This document shows positions 34,670 to 44,934 of a stretch of DNA of 64,000 nucleotides, piece after piece. Source of the stretch: Thiothrix fructosivorans (lineage in GTDB: Bacteria; Pseudomonadota; Gammaproteobacteria; Thiotrichales; Thiotrichaceae); the NCBI RefSeq assembly GCF_017349355.1, contig NZ_JAFMPM010000008.1, positions 806,001 through 870,000 on the forward strand. The letters are read 5' to 3'. Each line of letters begins with the position of its first letter. Position 1 is the first letter of the stretch. A program made the position numbers and the translations under genes. The notes under the pieces are model-generated. The model saw only the letters and a list, made by a program, of their open reading frames with translations, did no database searches and was not told the DNA's origin.

Positions 34670-35311
34670 CTACGGTATCCCCAACAACTTGTGAGTTTGT
34701 ACGCTGAGTTTCCACTGCGGGTGCTGCATACAATACGTAATTGCTGCCTTGGTATTCTGCGCCTGTGCCGCCCCATCCATTGCTTGCAGGTAGAAGTGCT
34801 GGAAGTCCAGCCCTGCAAAGCGTTCTGGCATGGCTAGATGTTGCGGGTACACCAATTTAAGTTCATTGCCATGCGTTAGTACGATCTCGCTGTCGGCTTT
34901 GGGGCTGACGCAGAGCCAGTCGATGCCTGCGGGGGCGGGTTTGGTGCCGTTGGTTTCTACCGCAATCTCGAAGTTTTCTTGGTGTAAAGCGTCGATCAGG
35001 GCTTTATCCAATTGCAACAGCGGTTCGCCGCCGGTGAAGACGATGAAGCGGTTCATGTCTTTTTTTACGCCGATCCACCATTCTTGAATGATCGCCGCGA
35101 CCAGTGCTTTGGGATCGCGGAATTTGCCGCCGTTGATGCCATCCACGCCTACAAAGTCGGTGTCGCAGAAGTTGCAGACGGCTTTGGCGCGGTCGGCTTC
35201 AACCCCTGACCAGAGATTGCAGCCAGCGAAGCGGCAAAAGATCGCGGGGCGACCGGCGTGGAAGCCTTCGCCTTGCAGGGTGTAGAAAATTTCTTTGACG
35301 GAATAGGTCAT
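34670..35311 (-). CDS. queE: 7-carboxy-7-deazaguanine synthase QueE
   Basis: 213 residues from the ATG at 35311, which overlaps the QueD-like stop as ATGA; longer starts fall inside that gene. It is a small radical-SAM enzyme that makes 7-carboxy-7-deazaguanine on the way to preQ0 and queuosine. The cluster motif is the QueE-type C-X14-C-X2-C, from Cys in FAGCNLW to CNFCDTD. TGGEPLLQ binds SAM and VETNGT follows. Cotranscribed with the QueD-like gene. Confidence 0.93.
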   Translation of the reverse strand: MTYSVKEIFYTLQGEGFHAGRPAIFCRFAGCNLWSGVEADRAKAVCNFCDTDFVGVDGINGGKFRDPKALVAAIIQEWWIGVKKDMNRFIVFTGGEPLLQLDKALIDALHQENFEIAVETNGTKPAPAGIDWLCVSPKADSEIVLTHGNELKLVYPQHLAMPERFAGLDFQHFYLQAMDGAAQAQNTKAAITYCMQHPQWKLSVQTHKLLGIP

Positions 35312-36396
35312 ACAGGCAATCCCGGTTCGTGTGCGCCCCATGATAGCACCACGCCACAGCCCGGTGTTTCGTACAGGTCGATGCGGTCGAGTTGCGGCAA
35401 GCCTGCGGCGGCTTGGGCGCGAATCCAACGTGCAACGCTGGCGGGGTCGGGTTCGTCTAGCCCGGTTAGGTCGTTGAGGTTGTGGTGGTCGAGCTGTTTG
35501 TAGATCGGGTTGAATTGCGTTTTTACGTCGCCGTAATCGACTGTCCAGCCCATTACGGTGTCGAGTGGGGCGGTGAGGTGCAGGCGTAGTAAGTAGCTGT
35601 GTCCGTGCAGGCGGCGCACGCTGTCGGCGGGGTCGGCGCGGTTGAGGGTTAGGGCGCTTTCAAAGCGTTGGTCTTTCCAGATGCGGTAATGTTGCCCGTC
35701 GTAGTGGCAGCCTGCGGTGACGGTTTCGTAGACGCTGACCCATGAGAGCGCGTCGAGTTCGGGCTTGAGGCGTTCCCACAGCCATGCGGCGAGGGTTTCG
35801 CTGGTGGGGTTGTTCAAGCCTTGGATGTCGTTGAGGCAGTGGTGGTGCAATTGGTCGTGCAAGGGTTGCCAGACGGCGGCGAGGCGGTCGAAGTCTACGC
35901 CCATGTCTTGCGCTTGCAGGTTTTGGTTGGCGTGTAGGATGACCTCGAAACCGTGACCGTGCATCCGTCCGCATTGGTGTCCGGGGGCGACGTTGGGGAG
36001 GCGGTGCGCGGCTTCAAAGCGGAAGCGTCGCCAGATGTGGGCGTTATCGGCAAGGTCGAGGTCTGCGCCTTGGTGCAAGGTGCTTTGCACGCCGACTGAG
36101 GCGACGCTGGGCAGGGCGAGGCGGGCGCGTATCCAACGGGCGAGGTTTTCATCCGTGGGCATCGGCAGGAATTGATTGAGGTCGTTGTAGTCGAGTGGCG
36201 CAACGCTGTGGGCGAGTTGTTGGCGTAGGGCTTCGACGGAGCTTGCACCTTGGGCGCGGACTTTGGCGAGAAAGCTGTGTCCGTGCAGGCGGCGGGCGGG
36301 GTGTGCGGCGGAAAGGGGGGATTGCCCTAGGGCATTTTCGACGCGGCAGGCGGCTTCAAAGGGGGCGGCGGCGACGTAAAACAGGGTTTCGTTCAT
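35308..36396 (-). CDS. Three-domain QueD/PTPS-like protein (6-carboxytetrahydropterin synthase family)
   Basis: 362 residues, about three times a normal QueD (about 120). Three PTPS-like repeats cover roughly 1-118, 122-240 and 243-362. Each has RRLHGHS- or RMHGHG-like and LD(Y/H)-N-L-type segments. Domain 2 keeps the zinc histidines (H131, H146, H148), the catalytic Cys142 and pterin-anchoring E224, but has HHHCLN where QueD has LDH. Domain 3 has lost the first zinc His (FESALTL) and the Cys but keeps LDHHNLND (D303, H304). Domain 1 has LDYNDLN and no zinc triad. In known PTPS the triad forms across subunits, so a single composite site between domains 2 and 3 is plausible. It overlaps queE by 4 bp, which supports a role in preQ0 synthesis. 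Confidence 0.85.
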   Translation of the reverse strand: MNETLFYVAAAPFEAACRVENALGQSPLSAAHPARRLHGHSFLAKVRAQGASSVEALRQQLAHSVAPLDYNDLNQFLPMPTDENLARWIRARLALPSVASVGVQSTLHQGADLDLADNAHIWRRFRFEAAHRLPNVAPGHQCGRMHGHGFEVILHANQNLQAQDMGVDFDRLAAVWQPLHDQLHHHCLNDIQGLNNPTSETLAAWLWERLKPELDALSWVSVYETVTAGCHYDGQHYRIWKDQRFESALTLNRADPADSVRRLHGHSYLLRLHLTAPLDTVMGWTVDYGDVKTQFNPIYKQLDHHNLNDLTGLDEPDPASVARWIRAQAAAGLPQLDRIDLYETPGCGVVLSWGAHEPGLPV

Positions 36397-36550
36397 GGGA
36401 TGGAGGGGGCTTGCTGGGAATCAAGCGGGAATTATGGCGTAGGCGGGGGCGTTGCGCTATGTTTTCGGTGTGTGTTAATAAATCCGATCTCAGCGGAAGA
36501 GGCGCGACTCCTATATGTGGGTGGTTTGTGAAAATTTGTCAAAAATAAAT

Positions 36551-39500
36551 TTATTCTATTTTTATATCAATTATTCTAATAATTACATTAAATATTAACT
36601 TGAAATTTTCAATATCAAAACTATTAAATTTCTCTGCATCATTTACAACGTTACTTGTGAAATCATTCTTAGAAATGGCAATGTTGTTTTTCCATTCAAT
36701 ATCATCTCTTAAATAGACTTCCTTATCTCTATCTAAAATATCAAGTTCGCTAGTATTTCTTTTTGGAGTTATATATTTGCCACATTTGCTATTTCCATTA
36801 GGGAGAAAGTTTTTTCCTATAAATATCTTTTTCCCATTCTTATCTTCTGTTGTCAAGTCTTCTTCTTTGTAATAGAATTCAATGCAAATTCTATCTAGTT
36901 CATCACTTATTTTTGGGATGCAAAAAGAATATACATTATTCCCATGATCATTAAATTCATTTTGTGCATATTTTTTTATATAAGTGTTATTATCTCTGTC
37001 AAATATAAAAATATATTTTTTTGGTTGTTCAGTTTTACAATAAGTTTGAACCATTCTATCTAGTTCTCCATCTCCCATATTCATATCTTCATATTCTTTA
37101 AAATGAATATCCAGGTCGCTATAAAGTCCATCTTTTTGAAATCGTTCTAATGCTTTCTTTAAGTGTTTCCAATCAGTTTTACCTTCTGTGATAATTAGTG
37201 GCTTATTATTGCTTTCTTTTTCCTCTTCGATTATTGAACCTATACGAATATATTTTTTATTCTCAATTAGTATATCTTTAGTTGATTTCTCCACCTGAAT
37301 AGCTATAAGTATTTTTTCGTTTATTTTTATTGTTTTAAATTCAAAGATTTCAAAATAAGTTGAATACTTAATGGATTTTTGAGTTAATTCCGCAACATTA
37401 AAATCACTATTTATTCCTACTATTCCAGATTCTTCAGAATATCCAATTATTAAATAACCACCATTGGTATTTGCTAGTGATGCCATAATTTGTGCTATTT
37501 TCAAAGAAGATGGTAAAATGGCTTCACAGGCTACCTCTTCATTTTTAGGATTATTAATAATATCAATTATTTTTTCTTTCTCATTTTTAATTATCGGTAT
37601 TTGATTGATTTTTGTATCTCTAAGTATTTTTCCAAAAGTTAATTTTCTAGGTGTTGATATTCCATCTTCATACCATAATTCAGATTCTGAGTATTCCAAT
37701 GTGTCTAATTCTGATGGGTAGTGAATAACAACCTTTCCATTATCAGAGGGTCTTGGAATTATATAAATATCTTTACCATTTTTCAAAATACCTGAAAGTA
37801 CAGTTATTGCACTATTGTCTACATTATCACAATTATATGTATCTAAGCTATTAAGGTGTTTCAAAACTCTTTCTTTTGACCGTTGCAATAATCCTTGAAT
37901 ATATTGCATTTTTTCTATAGATGATTCAGATGTATGATAATAGTTGTCTGAGATCTTCTTTATCTCATTAAAGTCATTTTCTGTTGTATCTAAAGTGGCT
38001 ATAGCTTCTTTTTTAGAAAAGACTTCTTCTTTTTCTTTAGGCATAGAATTTGTAGGCAATTCAATTTCTTCATTTTCAAAATATTCTATTATTTCAAATT
38101 CATTATCAGCTTTTAGTAAAAATCCTAGTTTATCTTCGTAACCTTTGATGTCTAAATACCCACATAAAACCTTTGGAAGTTCTAGCATTGATGTATTTGA
38201 ACTCCAAGGTGTGGTTACAAGTAATCTGTTTTCTTCTAAATGAGTTTTGACAGATTTTAAAATAATCCCATCATAAGATAATAAAAGTTTTGAGACTTCA
38301 TCTATATGAAGGAAAGAAATTTTTTCCTCTAAAATTGCACTATTAAATGTATCGTCAAGTTTTTTAATCCATTTTTTTAGAAAATGAAAAATATTTTCTA
38401 ATTTGCATTTCAAATCAGATTCTATTCTTTCTCCCTCAATTGCTATACTAAAACTACTCTGTCTTAATATTTCAACTCCTAAAGAAGCTAAAAGAGCTTC
38501 AATATTTGGATGAGATTTATTCTCTTCATTTAGCGCAATAAAATGATGCATCTTTTGAAAAACAGAGTTATTTCCATCTGCATAATATTTCAGTTCACTA
38601 CATGAAATAATATTATCATCTTCATCAGATAAATATGATAGTGAAGCCCAAGAACTTACTATATTTTTTTCATCCGTTCCCCAGTGAGTAGATAAGTCTA
38701 AAAGAGCTTTAAAAATTAATTGAACTATTTTTTTATTATTGTTTTTTATTTTTCCATCATCATTTTTATCGTCCGTAATTTTCGTCAAAATTTCTAAATA
38801 GTCATCTAATAATAATTGAGTTTTAAATTGAAAGAATAATTTCCAATCTTGATTTAACTCTGCTCCATCAAAAACAGCAAGATATTTTCCTGCAATAACT
38901 TTTATATCATCTGTATTTAAAAATACATCTTTAGATTTTTCACAGATTCCTTTTGTTGTGGGTATACATGGATTGTTTTTTATATACCATTTAGGATAGT
39001 TTTCAACACTATTACCAGTATTTCTTCCTGGATATTGTGGATTTCCCCAATATGCCTGAGCTGTTTGAGAAAGTTTTAAAAGAGAAGTGTCATTAATTAT
39101 ATAACCCCAAAATAATTTAGAAAATTCTAAATTTGATAAATTAAAGATATGTTTAATATATATGTTATTTTTATATTCATCGGCAGTAAAAATAGTGTGA
39201 TATGGTTGAAATTTCTTATCTGGTTCTTCAAAATATTCTTTCCTAAAGTCATACTCTTTAATCAGAATGGCTTTATTCTTTTTTTCATTAATAACAATGG
39301 GATCTATTGATTCTTGAATACCCATTTTCTTAAAAAATAGCCTAACTTCATCTTTGTCATTATCTAAAAGTAAGTAATCTTCGCTTAAAAAAATATTATC
39401 ACTTAAAACTGTTTCAAGTTTAAGTTTTGGATTGTAATTATCTGAAAAATAGCACTCTGATAAAGGAAGTAAAGTACCTTTGGTTGTTAAAATCCGAAGT

Positions 39501-41419
39501 TTATTTAGTTGTTCAAGATAACTATTGATGTTCTCTTTCTTATATAAATTATATATGGTTTGTATTGTCTCTATAGCATTTTTGTTTGTTATATAAGTAG
39601 ACGCATTTGGTATAATGGTTTTTAGTAAAAAGGAAATATCAGTTTTTTCTATCACTCCTAGCTTTTCTAACCAAGCTCTTATAGGTTGTTTGTCGATTAG
39701 TGAGGATTGTATTTTTGCGTGAAGAAATGAGAGTTCACTATCAGGATTATTCCATGTTTTATCATCAGGTGTTGGAAAGTAAATATTGTTAGGATAATTT
39801 AATTTGTTTTTATGATCATATAAAAAAGCCCAACTTGTCAATTTATCTTTAGGAAAAGAAGAGTTGGTAATTTCAGATTTATTTTTAAAATACTCTATAA
39901 GCTGAATATTTTTTTCAACTGTATGCTCGGATTTAAAATTATTAAAACTAAGAAAGGTAGGTATATCACTCCATGAAAAACTTGCCACCCCGATTTCTTT
40001 GAGTTTATAATCAGGAGTAATAAAAGGTGATTTAATTATCTTGTTTTCTCCACCAATTTTATGCTTAATGAAAGTTTTTATTATTTCACGGCCTATAAAT
40101 GGTTTTTCTGATAAAAAAGTCTCGTCCATTATGGCTTCATCAACTTTTAATAATGTATTTTCTTTTGATAAAATAAATGCTACGGTTTGAATTGCTTCAT
40201 CAATTCCTGCATCATAAGCATCACTTAAATCGTCATTGTAATTTAATTTTATAGGAATTAAATTATAAGCTTGACTGGAATATTCTCCTTTTACTAACGT
40301 CGCTATCCATTCGAATAGTTTGATGCTGATGGATTTAAATAGCCACTGATTCCATTTTGAATCAGTATGCAAAGATTCCCTGTTTGCTGATGTTAAAAAA
40401 GTACTATTCACCAAAATAGGTAAAGAATATCTTTTCTCATCTGTAGGCAAGTAGGCATACAATAAATTTTCATTTCGGGATAATCTTTTTAAGCTATTAT
40501 TTTCTTTTTTAATAGCCAAAGTTATTTCTATGTTATTCGCGTTCTTTAATTTTTTAGGAATATTAGTATCAAATTGCAATATGGTTTTTAATTTTTCAGG
40601 TACAGATAAGGTTATATTATTTATAAGCCATTTGGCTAATATTTCAGTATCTTTTTTTAATACTAATTTATTTTCATTCCTATCTATATTAATAATTGTT
40701 GCAATTTCATTGATTTCAAATTTAATAGAATTTATTTTTTTTAGAAATAAGAACATATTAACATTTAATGACAACTCTTTAATGGCTTTTTCTATTTCAT
40801 CTGGTTTTAAAACTTTTATAATGGTTGCGACATTCCAATTTCCACCAGATAGAAATATTTGTATGTCGTAATCTAAGTCGCTATTCTCTAAATTAATATA
40901 AATTGGAATAATTTGCCATGGGTATAAGAATTCTCTATCATTATCTTTCTCCCATTGTTCTTGATTTTCACTATATTCTTCTTTCCATTTCTCTTTCCAT
41001 CCAAAATTATGTCCAGCATCAAATTTAAAATACTCATTGCTACTAAATATTGTAACTTTATTTGATTGACCAAAAACAGATTTAAATCCTATGCCTTTAA
41101 AGCCTGTTTTTGTTGTATCAGATTTTTTTGTACCATTGTTAATGCTACAAAGACCTTTAACATCTCTAGGACTAAATGGCTTGCCTGTATGTGCAAGAAC
41201 TAAAGTGTCATTACAAAGTTTAATAATAACATCTACATTTTCCTCTTCAATAGCAGAATCATCTGCATTTTGTAATAATTCATAAACAAAACGCTTTGAG
41301 TCTGTATATAAATCAGTCGAGAGTGATTTTAGTGATTCTGCTTGATTTATTGCTTGGCTAGGGTCGAGGTAGTTTGTATTGCTCAGATATAAAGATTCAA
41401 TTGTGTCTTTGATATTCAT
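36551..41419 (-). CDS. Very large GHKL ATPase / AlbA_2 / TOPRIM-like fusion protein, probable defence protein
   Basis: 1622 residues. The N-terminal 200 residues have the sacsin/Hsp90-like ATPase signature: E47-LLQN51-ADDS, the HTGKPFS variant of the ADP-binding loop (77-83) and GFKGIGFKSVF (106-116). About 1,000 residues of unassigned helical sequence follow. Residues about 1295-1400 match AlbA_2/Schlafen-like domains (LANTNGGYLIIGYSEE). Residues about 1405-1622 look like a TOPRIM domain: LIITEGKTDW with E1412 and FIFDRDN with D1474 and D1476. Composition is about 25-30% G+C by eye, far below its neighbours, a sign of transfer. It lies between queD and two Uma2 genes. An antiphage role is inferred from architecture. 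The ATG at 41419 has AAGGA 15 nt upstream. Confidence 0.8.
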   Translation of the reverse strand: MNIKDTIESLYLSNTNYLDPSQAINQAESLKSLSTDLYTDSKRFVYELLQNADDSAIEEENVDVIIKLCNDTLVLAHTGKPFSPRDVKGLCSINNGTKKSDTTKTGFKGIGFKSVFGQSNKVTIFSSNEYFKFDAGHNFGWKEKWKEEYSENQEQWEKDNDREFLYPWQIIPIYINLENSDLDYDIQIFLSGGNWNVATIIKVLKPDEIEKAIKELSLNVNMFLFLKKINSIKFEINEIATIINIDRNENKLVLKKDTEILAKWLINNITLSVPEKLKTILQFDTNIPKKLKNANNIEITLAIKKENNSLKRLSRNENLLYAYLPTDEKRYSLPILVNSTFLTSANRESLHTDSKWNQWLFKSISIKLFEWIATLVKGEYSSQAYNLIPIKLNYNDDLSDAYDAGIDEAIQTVAFILSKENTLLKVDEAIMDETFLSEKPFIGREIIKTFIKHKIGGENKIIKSPFITPDYKLKEIGVASFSWSDIPTFLSFNNFKSEHTVEKNIQLIEYFKNKSEITNSSFPKDKLTSWAFLYDHKNKLNYPNNIYFPTPDDKTWNNPDSELSFLHAKIQSSLIDKQPIRAWLEKLGVIEKTDISFLLKTIIPNASTYITNKNAIETIQTIYNLYKKENINSYLEQLNKLRILTTKGTLLPLSECYFSDNYNPKLKLETVLSDNIFLSEDYLLLDNDKDEVRLFFKKMGIQESIDPIVINEKKNKAILIKEYDFRKEYFEEPDKKFQPYHTIFTADEYKNNIYIKHIFNLSNLEFSKLFWGYIINDTSLLKLSQTAQAYWGNPQYPGRNTGNSVENYPKWYIKNNPCIPTTKGICEKSKDVFLNTDDIKVIAGKYLAVFDGAELNQDWKLFFQFKTQLLLDDYLEILTKITDDKNDDGKIKNNNKKIVQLIFKALLDLSTHWGTDEKNIVSSWASLSYLSDEDDNIISCSELKYYADGNNSVFQKMHHFIALNEENKSHPNIEALLASLGVEILRQSSFSIAIEGERIESDLKCKLENIFHFLKKWIKKLDDTFNSAILEEKISFLHIDEVSKLLLSYDGIILKSVKTHLEENRLLVTTPWSSNTSMLELPKVLCGYLDIKGYEDKLGFLLKADNEFEIIEYFENEEIELPTNSMPKEKEEVFSKKEAIATLDTTENDFNEIKKISDNYYHTSESSIEKMQYIQGLLQRSKERVLKHLNSLDTYNCDNVDNSAITVLSGILKNGKDIYIIPRPSDNGKVVIHYPSELDTLEYSESELWYEDGISTPRKLTFGKILRDTKINQIPIIKNEKEKIIDIINNPKNEEVACEAILPSSLKIAQIMASLANTNGGYLIIGYSEESGIVGINSDFNVAELTQKSIKYSTYFEIFEFKTIKINEKILIAIQVEKSTKDILIENKKYIRIGSIIEEEKESNNKPLIITEGKTDWKHLKKALERFQKDGLYSDLDIHFKEYEDMNMGDGELDRMVQTYCKTEQPKKYIFIFDRDNNTYIKKYAQNEFNDHGNNVYSFCIPKISDELDRICIEFYYKEEDLTTEDKNGKKIFIGKNFLPNGNSKCGKYITPKRNTSELDILDRDKEVYLRDDIEWKNNIAISKNDFTSNVVNDAEKFNSFDIENFKLIFNVIIRIIDIKIE

Positions 41420-41424
41420 TTTTA

Positions 41425-41556
41425 TTATTTGTGTTCCTTGGTTTTGTGGTCATAACGATGGTGTATACCATCGGCAGTTGAGTTCTCGGTTTTGATATTT
41501 TTCACGACCATTTTATTATCAATGAGTTGCGGATTTTCAAGAAACCGAGTTTTCAT
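41425..41556 (-). CDS. Possible 43-residue leader ORF ahead of the large ATPase gene
   Basis: An uninterrupted frame starts at the ATG of 41556 and stops 5 bp before the large gene. It reads basic and hydrophilic (MKTRFLENPQLIDNK at the start, HHRYDHKTKEHK at the end). The frame is open upstream to a TTG at 41598, and an internal ATG lies at 41511. The AAGGA ribosome site of the large gene lies inside it, which would permit coupling. No clear ribosome site precedes it. It may be a leader peptide, a remnant or chance. Confidence 0.35.
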   Translation of the reverse strand: MKTRFLENPQLIDNKMVVKNIKTENSTADGIHHRYDHKTKEHK

Positions 41557-41571
41557 TTGCCGATGGTGTAT
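41456..41571. repeat. Direct and inverted repeats upstream of the large ATPase gene
   Basis: CGATGGTGTAT occurs at 41456-41466 and again at 41561-41571, 105 bp apart. The first copy is part of CGATGG-TGTATA-CCATCG, a perfect short palindrome. A longer imperfect inverted repeat joins 41468-41492 and 41542-41566: the outer CCATCGGCA and inner CTCGGTTT blocks match exactly and the middle 8 bp vary. Together they could fold into a cruciform over the promoter, or mark an integration scar. Confidence 0.6.
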
Positions 41572-41817
41572 TTTGGGATTGTCGTCGCTGTCTTCCAAAG
41601 CACCATATGCATCGCTGACACGCTACCGCCCTGCCACGTTAAAACCAGCATAGGGTCGGTTGCGTGTTTTTATGATTGGTATGGCAGTTGTCGTCAGTAT
41701 TTGACGAATTGCCCGAAACTCTACCATAAGCTGACGAAAAATACCCACTTAATAATGCGCTGACCCAATCACGCGGACATCCGCCTCAAGAAAGCCATTG
41801 GCGCATTCTAGCTGGCG
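41557..41817. other. Intergenic stretch without a convincing gene
   Basis: Between the repeat region and the first Uma2 stop, frames on both strands are short. A 78-codon + strand frame with a TTG start lacks a ribosome site and overlaps the repeats. Composition is intermediate between the AT-rich gene and the chromosome, so this probably contains one edge of the transferred segment. Confidence 0.4.
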
Positions 41818-42417
41818 TTACGCATCCGTCTCAGCGGGTTGGGTGAAATCAACGCCTTCGTAGATGTCCGCGAGGGTCAGGGTGGCTTCGGGGCAAGGCA
41901 GCGTAATCGTTTGTTCCAATGAATCAAACCGTGCCACATCCCAAGCGCCTTCTGCATCACGGTAAAATAGCGTCACTTGTGGCTGATCTTGCGCCACGAT
42001 CAGGTAAACCTGCAACGATGCCAGCTTTTGGTAAGCGATCAGCTTTTCGGTGAAATCCTTCCACTCCGTGGATTTGGAGGTGACTTCCACGATCAGACAC
42101 GGTTTTTCCAGATAATATTCATCGGCTTCATCCTGCTCACAACTAACGATCACATCCGGGTAATAAAATATCTTACGTTTGCTTATCCGAACTTTGACAG
42201 TCAACATGTGCAAATAGCAGTGTGTATTTTTTGTGGCTAAGCGCAACGCAAACGCAATATTCAAAGCAATATCGTTATGCCGCAGCGAAGTACCCGCCAT
42301 CGCATACACCACACCATCCACATACTCATGGCGTATTTCCGCGAGTTTTTCCCCTTCCAGATATTTCTGTTCAGTTATGTAAGTGGGATTTTCAGCGGTA
42401 TTTTTTATTGCCCGCAT
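41818..42417 (-). CDS. Uma2-family PD-(D/E)XK nuclease-like protein (copy 2)
   Basis: 199 residues. Core motifs: YITEQKYLEGE and EYVDGVVYAMAG near the N-terminus, then YYPDVIVSC (first acidic residue), CLIVEVTSKST (Glu of the ExK-like motif) and KDFTEKLIAYQ. Uma2 (DUF820) proteins are predicted endonucleases found in large numbers in cyanobacteria and some filamentous proteobacteria, with unknown roles. It follows a close paralogue by 16 bp; the two agree at roughly 60% of positions by eye, especially from YYPDV to YLIVAQD. Last gene before the repeat region. Confidence 0.88.
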   Translation of the reverse strand: MRAIKNTAENPTYITEQKYLEGEKLAEIRHEYVDGVVYAMAGTSLRHNDIALNIAFALRLATKNTHCYLHMLTVKVRISKRKIFYYPDVIVSCEQDEADEYYLEKPCLIVEVTSKSTEWKDFTEKLIAYQKLASLQVYLIVAQDQPQVTLFYRDAEGAWDVARFDSLEQTITLPCPEATLTLADIYEGVDFTQPAETDA

Positions 42418-42433
42418 GGTGTTGTTCCGGTTG

Positions 42434-43039
42434 CTACCTATCGGGTTCGGCGGGTTGCGTGAAGTCTACGCCTGCGTAAATGTCGGCGAGTGCTAAGGGT
42501 GTGTCAAGGCAGGGCAGGGTGATTTCCTGATCCAAGTCTTCAAACGCGGCGACCCACCATGTGCCGTCATCGGCTTGGCGGTAATAAAAGGTGACGTGGG
42601 GCTTGTCTTGCGCAACGATCAGATAAGCCTGCAAGGACTCTAAGGCTTGATACGCTAGCAATTTTTCGCTGCGGTCTTTCCAATCCGTGGATTTGGATGT
42701 TACCTCGACAATCAAACACGGCTGTTCCACATAATAGGCATCTGCATTATCAGGGGTGCAAGTCAGCACTACATCGGGGTAATAAAAAGATTTGCGCTTA
42801 CTTGCTCGCACTTTTACGTCAGAACTATAGACATCGCACGGTGTGCCATCTTGCCGCTGTAACGGTAAATGTCTAACGATATTCAAGGCAATACGGTTAT
42901 GTCGCCGACTTGTACCCGCCATCGCATATATCTGTCCGTCCACGTATTCATGGCGGAATTCAGCGGTTTTCTCTCCTTCCAGATACGCCTGTTCGGTGAT
43001 GTACCCGGAATTTTCGGGAGTATTTTTTACTGCCAGCAT
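42434..43039 (-). CDS. Uma2-family PD-(D/E)XK nuclease-like protein (copy 1)
   Basis: 201 residues. Same architecture as its neighbour: D89 in YYPDVV, E112 and K116 in LIVEVTSKST, D122 and K126 in the following helix, and the shared C-terminal DIYAGVDFTQPAE. The catalytic set of a PD-(D/E)XK fold appears complete. It starts 24 bp after the queC stop and may be cotranscribed. The pair is a local tandem duplication, since nucleotide and protein similarity extend to both ends. Confidence 0.88.
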   Translation of the reverse strand: MLAVKNTPENSGYITEQAYLEGEKTAEFRHEYVDGQIYAMAGTSRRHNRIALNIVRHLPLQRQDGTPCDVYSSDVKVRASKRKSFYYPDVVLTCTPDNADAYYVEQPCLIVEVTSKSTDWKDRSEKLLAYQALESLQAYLIVAQDKPHVTFYYRQADDGTWWVAAFEDLDQEITLPCLDTPLALADIYAGVDFTQPAEPDR

Positions 43040-43063: not shown

Positions 43064-43756
43064 TTAAGTTTGATCATAGCGCAGCAATAACGGGTCAGCC
43101 ACGCCCGCCTCAGCAAAGCCCTTGGCGCGGAGCAGGCAAGAGTCGCATTGCCCACACGGTTTGCCGTCATCACTGGGGTCATAGCAACTGCTGGTGAGAC
43201 TGTAGTCTACGCCTAGCGCCATGCCCTTGATGATAATGTCAGCCTTGCTCATCTCCAGCAGCGGCGCGTGGATGCTGAGTTTATTGCCCTCAACCCCGCT
43301 TTTGGTCGCAAGGTTTGCCATCGTCTCAAACGCGCTGATGAATTCTGGGCGGCAATCGGGGTAGCCAGAATAATCGAGCGCATTAACCCCCACGAAGATA
43401 TGGTTAGCGTGCAGCACTTCCGCCCAGCCCAGCGCGAACGACAGGAAAATCGTATTGCGGGCGGGGACGTAGGTGATCGGAATGTCGGTTTCCATCGCGG
43501 CGGTGTCGCGCCCTTTGGGAACATCAATATCAGCCGTCAACGCCGACCCGCCAAAAGCACGCAGGTTAATATCAGCAATGACGTGTTCCTTGACCTGCAT
43601 CGCCGCCGCCACCCGTTGCGCGGAGGCGAGTTCGACGCTGTGGCGTTGCCCGTAGCGGAACGAGAGCGCGTAGGGTTCATAGCCTTGCGCTTTGGCAATG
43701 GCGAGGACGGTGGTGGAATCGAGTCCGCCACTGAGAAGAATGACTGCTTTTTTCAT
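43064..43756 (-). CDS. queC: 7-cyano-7-deazaguanine (preQ0) synthase QueC
   Basis: 230 residues. The PP-loop ATP-pyrophosphatase motif [10 protein letters not shown] lies at residues 7-16, and the zinc-binding [17 protein letters not shown] cluster near the C-terminus. It turns 7-carboxy-7-deazaguanine into preQ0. With queE and the QueD-like gene it supplies all three steps from dihydroneopterin triphosphate, but here it is parted from them by about 6.7 kb. It follows the AlbA_2 gene by 11 bp on the same strand. No tgt-like DNA transglycosylase is near, so ordinary queuosine synthesis is likelier than DNA modification. Confidence 0.95.
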
Positions 43757-43767
43757 GGTCGTCTCGA

Positions 43768-44934
43768 CTAGCTTAGAGGAGGAAAGGGTGGTCGCTGGAT
43801 AATTGCTTTAAACAAATTGTTGTCACGATCATCGACAAACTCAATATCGGGGTAGGCACTTAAGGCGCGTACAATGCCGCTGCCTAAGCCCCGATAAGGC
43901 AACATGCGGCTGGCAAACGACACCAAAATCGGGTTACGGATATTGGAATTACCCAGTTTGATTTTGGTGATGGTCAAATTGTTGGGTAAATGCCCCGGAC
44001 TGATAATTTCTATCCGATCTTTAAAAATAAACAGGCGGATGGTGGCAGAGACAAAATAATCCCGATGCAGCAGTGCGTTCGTAATCAGTTCTTCAAACAC
44101 AATGCGGGGAATTTCCAACTCACCCAAGGAATTGACGCTTTGCCCTGCTTGTACATGATGCAGGTTACGCATGACGAAACCGATGGCTTGCTGGAACACA
44201 TCCAACATTTTGCCACTCATATCCTGACTGTCCAAGTAAGTCGTGGCATTTAAGTCTGTGCCGGGAAAGGCAATGGCTTTGATGATGAAGGTGGGCAAGT
44301 GAAAACTGGGGTTACGCACAAAGAGCAATGCGCCCGCCACATTAAACACGCCATCCCGCATCAGGTTCATGTTTTCCAGCAGGGTAGGCAGGGGGATTTC
44401 TAGTTCATCGACGACAGTGTTTAAGTGTTTTTGCAGGAAAGAGGCGAAATAATCTTTATCCAAATCCTTGACCGTCAAGCCTTTGGCGGGGATTTCATCG
44501 CCATGCAACAAACCAGCCGCTTGGTACATCCGTTGGATTTCTTCGCGGGCAGTGACTTTGCGTTTGTCTGCGCCGCTTTTTATCCAGATCAAACCGTTGT
44601 TATCCATGTAAGGTTTGCTGATGCCTTGGGGGATTTGAATGACCATCACCAAGCCACCTGTCGTGGCAACATTTTCAGTTTGCGGATTGATAGGAGGGCG
44701 CACGGATTGCGAGGCTGCATTCGCAATCAGTTGGTTCAAGCGTCCGATGTCTTCACGGGTTAAGCCTGCAAATGAGCCATCATCTTTGACACCGATCAGG
44801 ATCATGCCACCAATCCCGTTGCTGAATGCCACCATTTCAGCAGCCAAGGCGTTGATGTTGGTTACGTCGGACTTGAACTGATGTTGCCCGTCTTCGCCCC
44901 GGTCGATGATGGCTTGCAGTGCGGTGGTGTCCAT
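43768..44934 (-). CDS. AlbA_2 domain / GHKL ATP-binding protein (COG2865-like)
   Basis: 388 residues. The N-terminal AlbA_2 (divergent AAA_4) domain covers about 15-125, with [19 protein letters not shown] and YIRxGS-like [12 protein letters not shown]. The middle is unassigned. A C-terminal ATPase-like part is marked by [15 protein letters not shown] and EIISPGHLP with [10 protein letters not shown]. Proteins of this layout are often annotated as transcriptional regulators or RecG-like helicases; function is not established. It lacks the usual C-terminal winged helix. It shares the AlbA_2 domain with the large fusion protein 2.4 kb away, with queC and the Uma2 genes between. Confidence 0.85.

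Follow-up and report, generated by a model that had tools for sequence, protein, structure and literature searches.

Results

A large multidomain gene in Thiothrix fructosivorans

The window analysed here is a stretch of 64 kb from Thiothrix fructosivorans (contig NZ_JAFMPM010000008.1, positions 806,001 to 870,000), and its subject is a single long gene on the minus strand, referred to below as the tmtA-like gene. Its open reading frame (ORF; 36551-41419) comprises 1622 codons, starts with ATG and is intact, without internal stop. The predicted protein consists of a core headed by a sacsin/Hsp90-like (GHKL) ATPase domain, a linker region, an AlbA_2 domain and a C-terminal TOPRIM domain (Table 1). 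An earlier note on this DNA had proposed the order ATPase, AlbA_2, TOPRIM, which is supported by Pfam, NCBIfam, PADLOC and a structural model, and the residues it listed (E47, N51, the glycine motif, E1412, D1474 and D1476) are all as stated. The observed domains and the conservation of their residues are far beyond chance.

Table 1. Coordinates of the tmtA-like gene, its parts and the flanking features in the window
Feature	Coordinates	Strand	Remarks
tmtA-like gene	36551..41419	-	1622 amino acids; predicted sensor core + AlbA_2 + TOPRIM effector
TmtA core	38000..41419	-	residues 1-1140; common to relatives with different tails
Sacsin/Hsp90-like (GHKL) ATPase domain	40709..41308	-	residues 38-237; E47, N51, G106xxG109xG111
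Variable linker and conserved 'RPSD...SE...ELWxEDG...IP' domain	37580..37999	-	residues 1141-1280; end of core
AlbA_2 (Schlafen-type) domain	37235..37507	-	residues 1305-1395; probable adaptor between core and effector
Predicted TOPRIM effector, retron-Eco2/RT-Toprim_I-C type	36554..37207	-	residues 1405-1622; E1412, D1416, D1474, D1476, E1514, K1584
Variable insertion site	36470..41568	.	homology breaks with congeners
MITE-like 107-bp element	41464..41570	.	right border; 29-nt inverted ends, 79% complementary
Flanking gene PTPS (QueD-like)	35308..36396	-	Pfam
Flanking gene QueC	43064..43756	-	Pfam

The gene differs sharply in composition from its surroundings. The four 1-kb intervals lying wholly within it have a G+C content of 26.5-27.5%. 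The intervals at its borders are mixed (0.444 and 0.406), the nearest ones further out reach 0.479-0.598, and over the remaining intervals of the 64 kb the content is 40.6-59.8%, the minimum (40.6%) overlapping the end of the gene. At third codon positions (GC3) the value is 17.9% in the tmtA-like gene versus 52-74% in five neighbouring genes. Both measures confirm the remark in the earlier note that an AT-rich gene lies among richer neighbours, and by its composition the gene is probably foreign, that is, horizontally acquired.

The core belongs to the TmtA family

Residues 1-1169 match the PADLOC TmtA profile PDLC03972 with an E-value of 5.5e-275 (profile positions 1-1148 of 1302), and five further TmtA profiles of PADLOC match the protein more weakly. 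A single scan of genome contigs yielded ten relatives, which are 43-55% identical in their best segments. One of them (L011), broken into several frames on a contig that ends before the tail, was excluded from the core alignment A1; all ten members of A1 are matched by PDLC03972. On this sequence evidence the window protein is classed as a variant of TmtA with its core in a known defence family. The match rules out a wholly unknown system and bears on the earlier remark that the combination was not recognised as a named system, which holds only in part: residues 1 to about 1170 fall into a catalogued family.

We take TmtA to be the gene of the Tiamat system, which is said to go back to Millman et al. 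2022. Like TmtA, the window gene is a single large gene for a sacsin-like ATPase. Two papers name Tiamat among the systems whose mechanism is not known (PMC12926258; PMC10482375), and in a third one Tiamat calls in plant-associated metagenomes are reported to fall on plant sequences (PMC12409356). Such calls would fit plant sacsin/NOV-like proteins, and TmtA profiles may well reach these eukaryotic relatives. In our own literature search no paper on TmtA was found in the context of PADLOC or phage defence.

The N-terminal domain gave consistent matches. Pfam SACS is found at residues 38-237 (E 2.4e-10, above the Pfam cut-off) and the NCBIfam sacsin ATP-binding domain NF047352 at residues 42-124 (E 7.5e-23). 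When the A1 profile was compared with the PDB, the only matches at E <= 0.1 were four sacsin chains (0.0017-0.0028, 5v47 at 0.0017). The N-box residues E47 and N51 and the GxxGxG glycines G106, G109 and G111 are invariant in all ten aligned homologues. The N-terminal sacsin domain is shared with sacsin and the plant NOV proteins; the window protein differs from these in having no ubiquitin-like, DnaJ, HEPN or NOV_C match in Pfam and a predicted nuclease tail instead. A plasmid-borne sacsin-like protein (L056; retrieved by a search with the window protein, core 21% identical to that of the latter) ends in NOV_C/DUF3883 (8.9e-17), the place taken in the window protein by AlbA_2 and TOPRIM. None of the three PDLC03972-type proteins scanned whole with Pfam (window, L003 and L005) contains NOV_C.

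At the end of the core the conserved domain containing the ELW motif has a counterpart in the TmtA of L028, which ends in a similar domain (40% identity over 1155-1269). This gene (L028:5172-8378) lies on a Calothrix plasmid and matches the PADLOC profile PDLC03967 (E 2.8e-153). A nearby gene carries the label TIR protein; Pfam assigns HTH + AAA_35 to it.

The C-terminus resembles the TOPRIM effector of retron Eco2

A Pfam scan of the window protein gave no TOPRIM match. The RT-Toprim_I-C profiles of PADLOC, in contrast, match residues 1391-1619 with an E-value of 3.3e-29, and they do so over profile positions 316-527 of 529, that is, only with their TOPRIM end. Among 11 aligned TOPRIM domains E1412 and D1416 are invariant (TEGKTD in 11/11), and D1474 and D1476 (D-R-D) are kept in ten, the exception (L055) aligning poorly in the middle of the domain. 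Residues 1282-1622 were modelled with AlphaFold2 from 13 sequences. The tail model has a mean predicted local distance difference test score (pLDDT) of 72.8 and a predicted template modelling score (pTM) of 0.64; in its TOPRIM part the 10-residue blocks have pLDDT values of 75-95, lower values being confined to model residues 251-300 (31-60) and to the final block (56). With Foldseek the top PDB match of this model is retron Eco2 (9i2f; E 1.1e-6 and 4.2e-5, root mean square deviation 17.4 and 5.3), whereas the OLD nuclease 6p74 has an E-value of 0.3. A fold search of BFVD gave no match at E <= 0.001. The proposal that the C-terminus folds as TOPRIM is thus borne out by the predicted structure. 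Both the profiles and the predicted fold put the window TOPRIM closer to the effector of retron Eco2 than to the OLD nucleases.

According to PMC12405507, the Toprim of Eco2 is an RNase that is toxic alone and requires E374, D378, D460/D462, S513/E515 and K562. The counterparts in the window protein are E1412 and D1416 by the printed profile alignment, and D1474/D1476 and E1514 by motif order, which also places Cys1512 at the position of Ser513.

Despite the common TOPRIM, with its TEGKTD and D-x-D residues, retron-Eco2 (Ec67, type I-C in PADLOC) has a reverse transcriptase (RT) with msDNA as its sensor, whereas here a sacsin-like ATPase would take this role. Because neither Pfam nor PADLOC finds an RT domain in the window protein, it is not a retron. 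The logic of an ATPase sensor combined with a TOPRIM effector is shared with OLD, GajA and AriA/AriB of PARIS. Those proteins have an ABC-type ATPase; the window protein has one of the GHKL type, about 1100 extra residues and AlbA_2 in between. Membership of the OLD nucleases was rejected because the N-terminus is sacsin/GHKL and no ABC ATPase is found by Pfam or PADLOC.

Relatives of the TOPRIM domain occur on different partners. In L022 and L023 (PADLOC) and L048 (Pfam) they are fused to ABC-type ATPases, and the same fusion was judged by eye from P-loop-like starts in L044, L047, L050 and L051. Others are found on reverse transcriptases, namely L025 (PADLOC RT-Toprim, 4.1e-163) and L055 (8.3e-242), the similarity of the latter to the window TOPRIM spanning just 28 residues.

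These partners bear on the substrate. The architecture could be the one described and its TOPRIM could nevertheless cut DNA like OLD and GajA, so that DNA would be destroyed rather than RNA. The fusions to ABC-type ATPases in L022, L023 and L048 speak for this, as does an ATPase-TOPRIM gene (L027) that overlaps a type I restriction endonuclease (REase) gene (3.5e-160), and the TOPRIMs of OLD and GajA do cut DNA (PMC10568477). The best fold and profile match is nevertheless an RNase, and tRNA is the substrate of a further defence TOPRIM, AriB from PARIS (PMC12409363). We therefore regard cleavage of DNA as unlikely, though worth keeping in view, and prefer an Eco2-like cleavage of RNA.

Two side observations concern the ABC ATPase-TOPRIM genes. 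The gene at L048/L049:3726-5684, with an Eco2-type TOPRIM, lies within what by eye appears to be a type I restriction-modification operon, on contigs listed as viral. Those of L044 and L047 adjoin portal- and terminase-like phage genes, possibly at a prophage cargo site (read from the sequence only).

The AlbA_2 domain stays while the tails change

Between core and TOPRIM, Pfam SLFN_AlbA_2 matches residues 1305-1395 (E 1.7e-8, above the Pfam cut-off), and the tail model matches the AlbA_2 structure 3lmm in Foldseek (E 1.3e-3). The domain is above the Pfam cut-off in the proteins of the window, L003, L005, L002 and L009. In L007 its match stays under that cut-off, and in L004, L006, L008 and L010 it was recognised by alignment.

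Since this domain is constant while the tails change, it looks like an adaptor and probably couples the core to the tail. It might instead be the nuclease itself, a Schlafen-type RNase with the TOPRIM as accessory, and its presence in the window protein and in all nine relatives with a visible tail would agree with that, as would a weak fold match to SLFN14 (E 0.07). Schlafens use acidic and Lys residues for catalysis. These positions are substituted by Ala and Glu in the window copy; they read Glu and Lys in the second gene of L009, and the caspase-type copies vary. We hold a catalytic AlbA_2 to be highly improbable and retain the role of adaptor. From the Schlafen proteins the window protein further differs in that its AlbA_2 is contained in a larger protein of presumed sensor-effector type. 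A separate AlbA_2 + HATPase_c_4 gene (Pfam) at 43768-44934, a few genes upstream of tmtA, is probably unrelated.

Related cores carry different tails

Six of the ten relatives (L003, L004, L005, L006, L008 and L010) are fused proteins of 1680-1699 amino acids which end in a caspase. The caspase GHG and DAC motifs are present in all six; the PADLOC caspase profile matches six of the ten aligned members, and Pfam Peptidase_C14 was found in both proteins scanned (L003 and L005). Three further relatives are split into a core gene and an overlapping second gene. In L002 and L009 core genes of 1294 and 1289 amino acids overlap a 355-amino-acid gene with AlbA_2 (2.1e-18 and 5.5e-15), the C-terminus of which shows an R-x4-H motif by eye. 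The assignment of the L002 second gene to HEPN rests on this motif (RHLFSH), because its structure, predicted from a single sequence, reached a pLDDT of only 33.6. In L007 a core gene of 1321 amino acids overlaps a 302-amino-acid gene whose AlbA_2 match is below the cut-off (4.3e-4) and whose end shows a weak resemblance to the nuclease LmuA (7.6e-4).

The border of the exchange can be seen by comparing L008, which has a caspase, with L007. Up to residue 1140 the two are 68-93% identical per 60-residue bin. Past this point the identity falls to 30, 48, 37 and 27% through the linker, the ELW domain and AlbA_2, and to 22, 18, 18 and 0% in the effector. In contrast, L008 and L003, which both have the caspase, are 60-97% identical until the last few residues. 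Because the identity of L008 and L007 collapses there, related cores carry unrelated effectors, the change starting near residue 1140.

In a tree of the cores L007 is placed among the caspase-type cores, and none of 200 bootstrap trees unites the caspase rows in a single group. L002 and L009 have the cores closest to that of the window protein (56%), with a fork supported at 100/100. The window protein is the sole TOPRIM-tailed case seen in this analysis.

Viral contigs scanned with the core alignment returned 49 pattern matches and not one relative, and none was found in viral sequences with the C-terminal portion of the L002 second gene as query. A plasmid search with this second gene gave two matches, both confined to the AlbA_2 part, and E. 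coli genomes compared with 3918 bases of L010 gave no match.

Defence genes beside the relatives

PADLOC was run on two or three genes per locus at nine loci of relatives. A Lamassu system (LmuA + LmuB) lies directly upstream of the caspase-type tmtA in L003, L004 and L008, all of them Bacillota loci, and IetAS adjoins L010. Lamassu or IetAS are hence neighbours at four of the nine loci, a count that has no random-locus baseline. The neighbours of L005, L006 and L007 gave weak PADLOC matches and those of L002 and L009 none; by Pfam, L002 adjoins a gene for an LA2681-type HEPN protein. A functional pairing of Lamassu with the tmtA genes of L003, L004 and L008 is possible.

The gene occupies a variable site and is rare

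Within the queuosine cluster, the tmtA-like gene occupies a site that is variable in the genus. The PTPS gene was found at E <= 1e-50 in nine of 20 genomes (own included), and the stretches beside it were compared from six of the eight other genomes that have it. PTPS and QueC are immediate neighbours in two congeners (L042 and L043). In L038-L041 homology to the window stops at 36466-36469. Three of these four regain it at 41569-41592, and over the 12 kb taken from the fourth it stays absent. The miniature inverted-repeat transposable element (MITE)-like repeat at the right border has a second copy in the same genome (85% over 114 bp at C8:334996-335109). Two side observations concern the flanks: the PTPS protein contains three PTPS-matching stretches in one chain, and two tandem Uma2-type genes lie at 41818-43039 between tmtA and QueC, Uma2 bordering the site in three congeners too. 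As read from the sequence, the cargo at the site in L038-L041 consists of transposase-, group II intron RT-, BrnTA-, PIN- and HigBA-like genes.

The mobile and toxin-antitoxin-like genes in the congeners and the MITE-like repeat could indicate that the tmtA-like gene serves the maintenance of a mobile element, acts like a toxin-antitoxin system or is a decaying passenger. The intact frame and the retained candidate catalytic residues speak against this, and no ORF of at least 90 amino acids lies between the tmtA-like gene and the Uma2 gene, smaller ones being outside that search. There is little to recommend this explanation over a defence function of the gene.

A search of 15 further genomes from the genus at E <= 1e-30 did not bring up tmtA. 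With the anchor genome counted, wider samples gave 2/369 for the class, the second being a partial match with 30% identity, 1/249, 1/398 and 1/247 for further samples, 1/398 for the phylum and 1/240 with the L009 core as query. These counts are rough rates because cut-offs varied (1e-30 to 1e-100), samples overlap and the large searches scored no more than two candidates in any listed genome. Counting its own genome, only one of 16 in the genus carries the gene, and a housekeeping gene was rejected on this ground. The homologues are patchy in distribution and occur in more than housekeeping contexts; on this evidence the refuting condition named in the earlier note, homologues confined to such contexts and inherited vertically, does not hold.

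A stress or proteostasis protein would be another way to explain a sacsin-like core: the core would have a chaperone function and its nuclease tail would adjust translation during stress, with no specific anti-phage role. Sacsin is a chaperone with a HEPN domain for which a role in stress at the RNA level has been hypothesised (PMC3710099). Unrelated enzymatic tails on close cores, the patchy occurrence, the foreign composition and the Lamassu or IetAS neighbours fit conflict systems better, and we consider a pure stress function very unlikely compared with one in phage defence.

Discussion

We think it probable that the tmtA-like gene encodes a horizontally acquired single-gene anti-phage protein which joins a TmtA core to an Eco2-type TOPRIM effector and works as a sensor-effector of abortive infection. 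The earlier guess of a single-gene defence protein is supported. What was observed and underlies this proposal are the domains, the conserved candidate catalytic residues, the defence-family core, the differing tails, the foreign composition, the variable site and the defence neighbours of some relatives; infection sensing, dependence on ATP, RNA rather than DNA as substrate and an abortive outcome we infer. In such a mechanism the core of about 1140 residues would sense an infection product with its sacsin/Hsp90-like ATPase at the head and change its conformation, and the AlbA_2 domain would transmit this change to the tail. The tail would be an effector open to exchange, in the window protein a TOPRIM nuclease of the retron-Eco2 type that depends on metal. 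It would most likely cut RNA, so that phage production stops, and the cell would probably be sacrificed. Protection against phages by the window protein is predicted accordingly from its sequence.

Several observations weigh against this proposal or parts of it. The first concerns ATP. In Hsp90-type ATPases the Asp of the DxG motif contacts adenine. In the window protein this position reads His77-x-Gly79, which is invariant in all ten aligned homologues, and because the Asp is replaced, ATP binding and hydrolysis are not assured; use of ATP by the core is plausible, not certain. Concerning the TOPRIM, the match to Eco2 9i2f has a TM-score of only 0.38 by query length and the sequence match to Eco2 is weak: the only PDB chains matched by the profile A5, built from 15 sequences, are those of Retron Ec67, at E 0.0012 and over two short stretches, and the smaller profile A4 gives 0.011 for Ec67 and 0.59 for an unrelated protein. 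K1584 is invariant in 11/11 TOPRIM domains and may correspond to K562, although in the profile alignment it stands opposite a Lys near position 546. A TOPRIM tail on a second core was not found (0/9 relatives with a visible tail). Concerning the exchange of tails, the forks around L007 are supported at 82-93 / 80-100, none at the program's starred level, and the four tail types need three changes on the tree, the least possible. The tree would therefore show a change of tail and not many repeated ones, without a settled direction. Finally, PADLOC showed no strong neighbour at five of the nine loci (L002, L005, L006, L007 and L009), with two genes tested at each, and the neighbours of the window gene itself are queuosine, Uma2 and metabolic genes with no evident defence island (ten scanned, Pfam only).

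The new part of this work is the exchangeable tail and not the system as a whole, the core being already catalogued as TmtA. No description of tail exchange in Tiamat was found in the literature searched, which is not proof of its absence. We lean slightly towards the view that TmtA cores form a general bacterial immune sensor platform with a logic like that of NLR and Avs proteins, in which effector cassettes have been swapped as units near residue 1140. The cassettes of such a platform would be a caspase protease, an Eco2-type TOPRIM RNase, an REase-like enzyme and perhaps a HEPN RNase, all behind a shared AlbA_2 adaptor.

Such an exchange would explain the action of Tiamat-type systems, and the exchangeable tail makes the mechanism directly testable, with the core expected to act as sensor and the caspase, TOPRIM and other tails as weapons. 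One TOPRIM subtype occurs on reverse transcriptases of the retron type, on ABC ATPases and on a GHKL ATPase, and sacsin-like ATPases, to which a human ataxia protein is related, would be linked to the sensor-effector design of immune systems.

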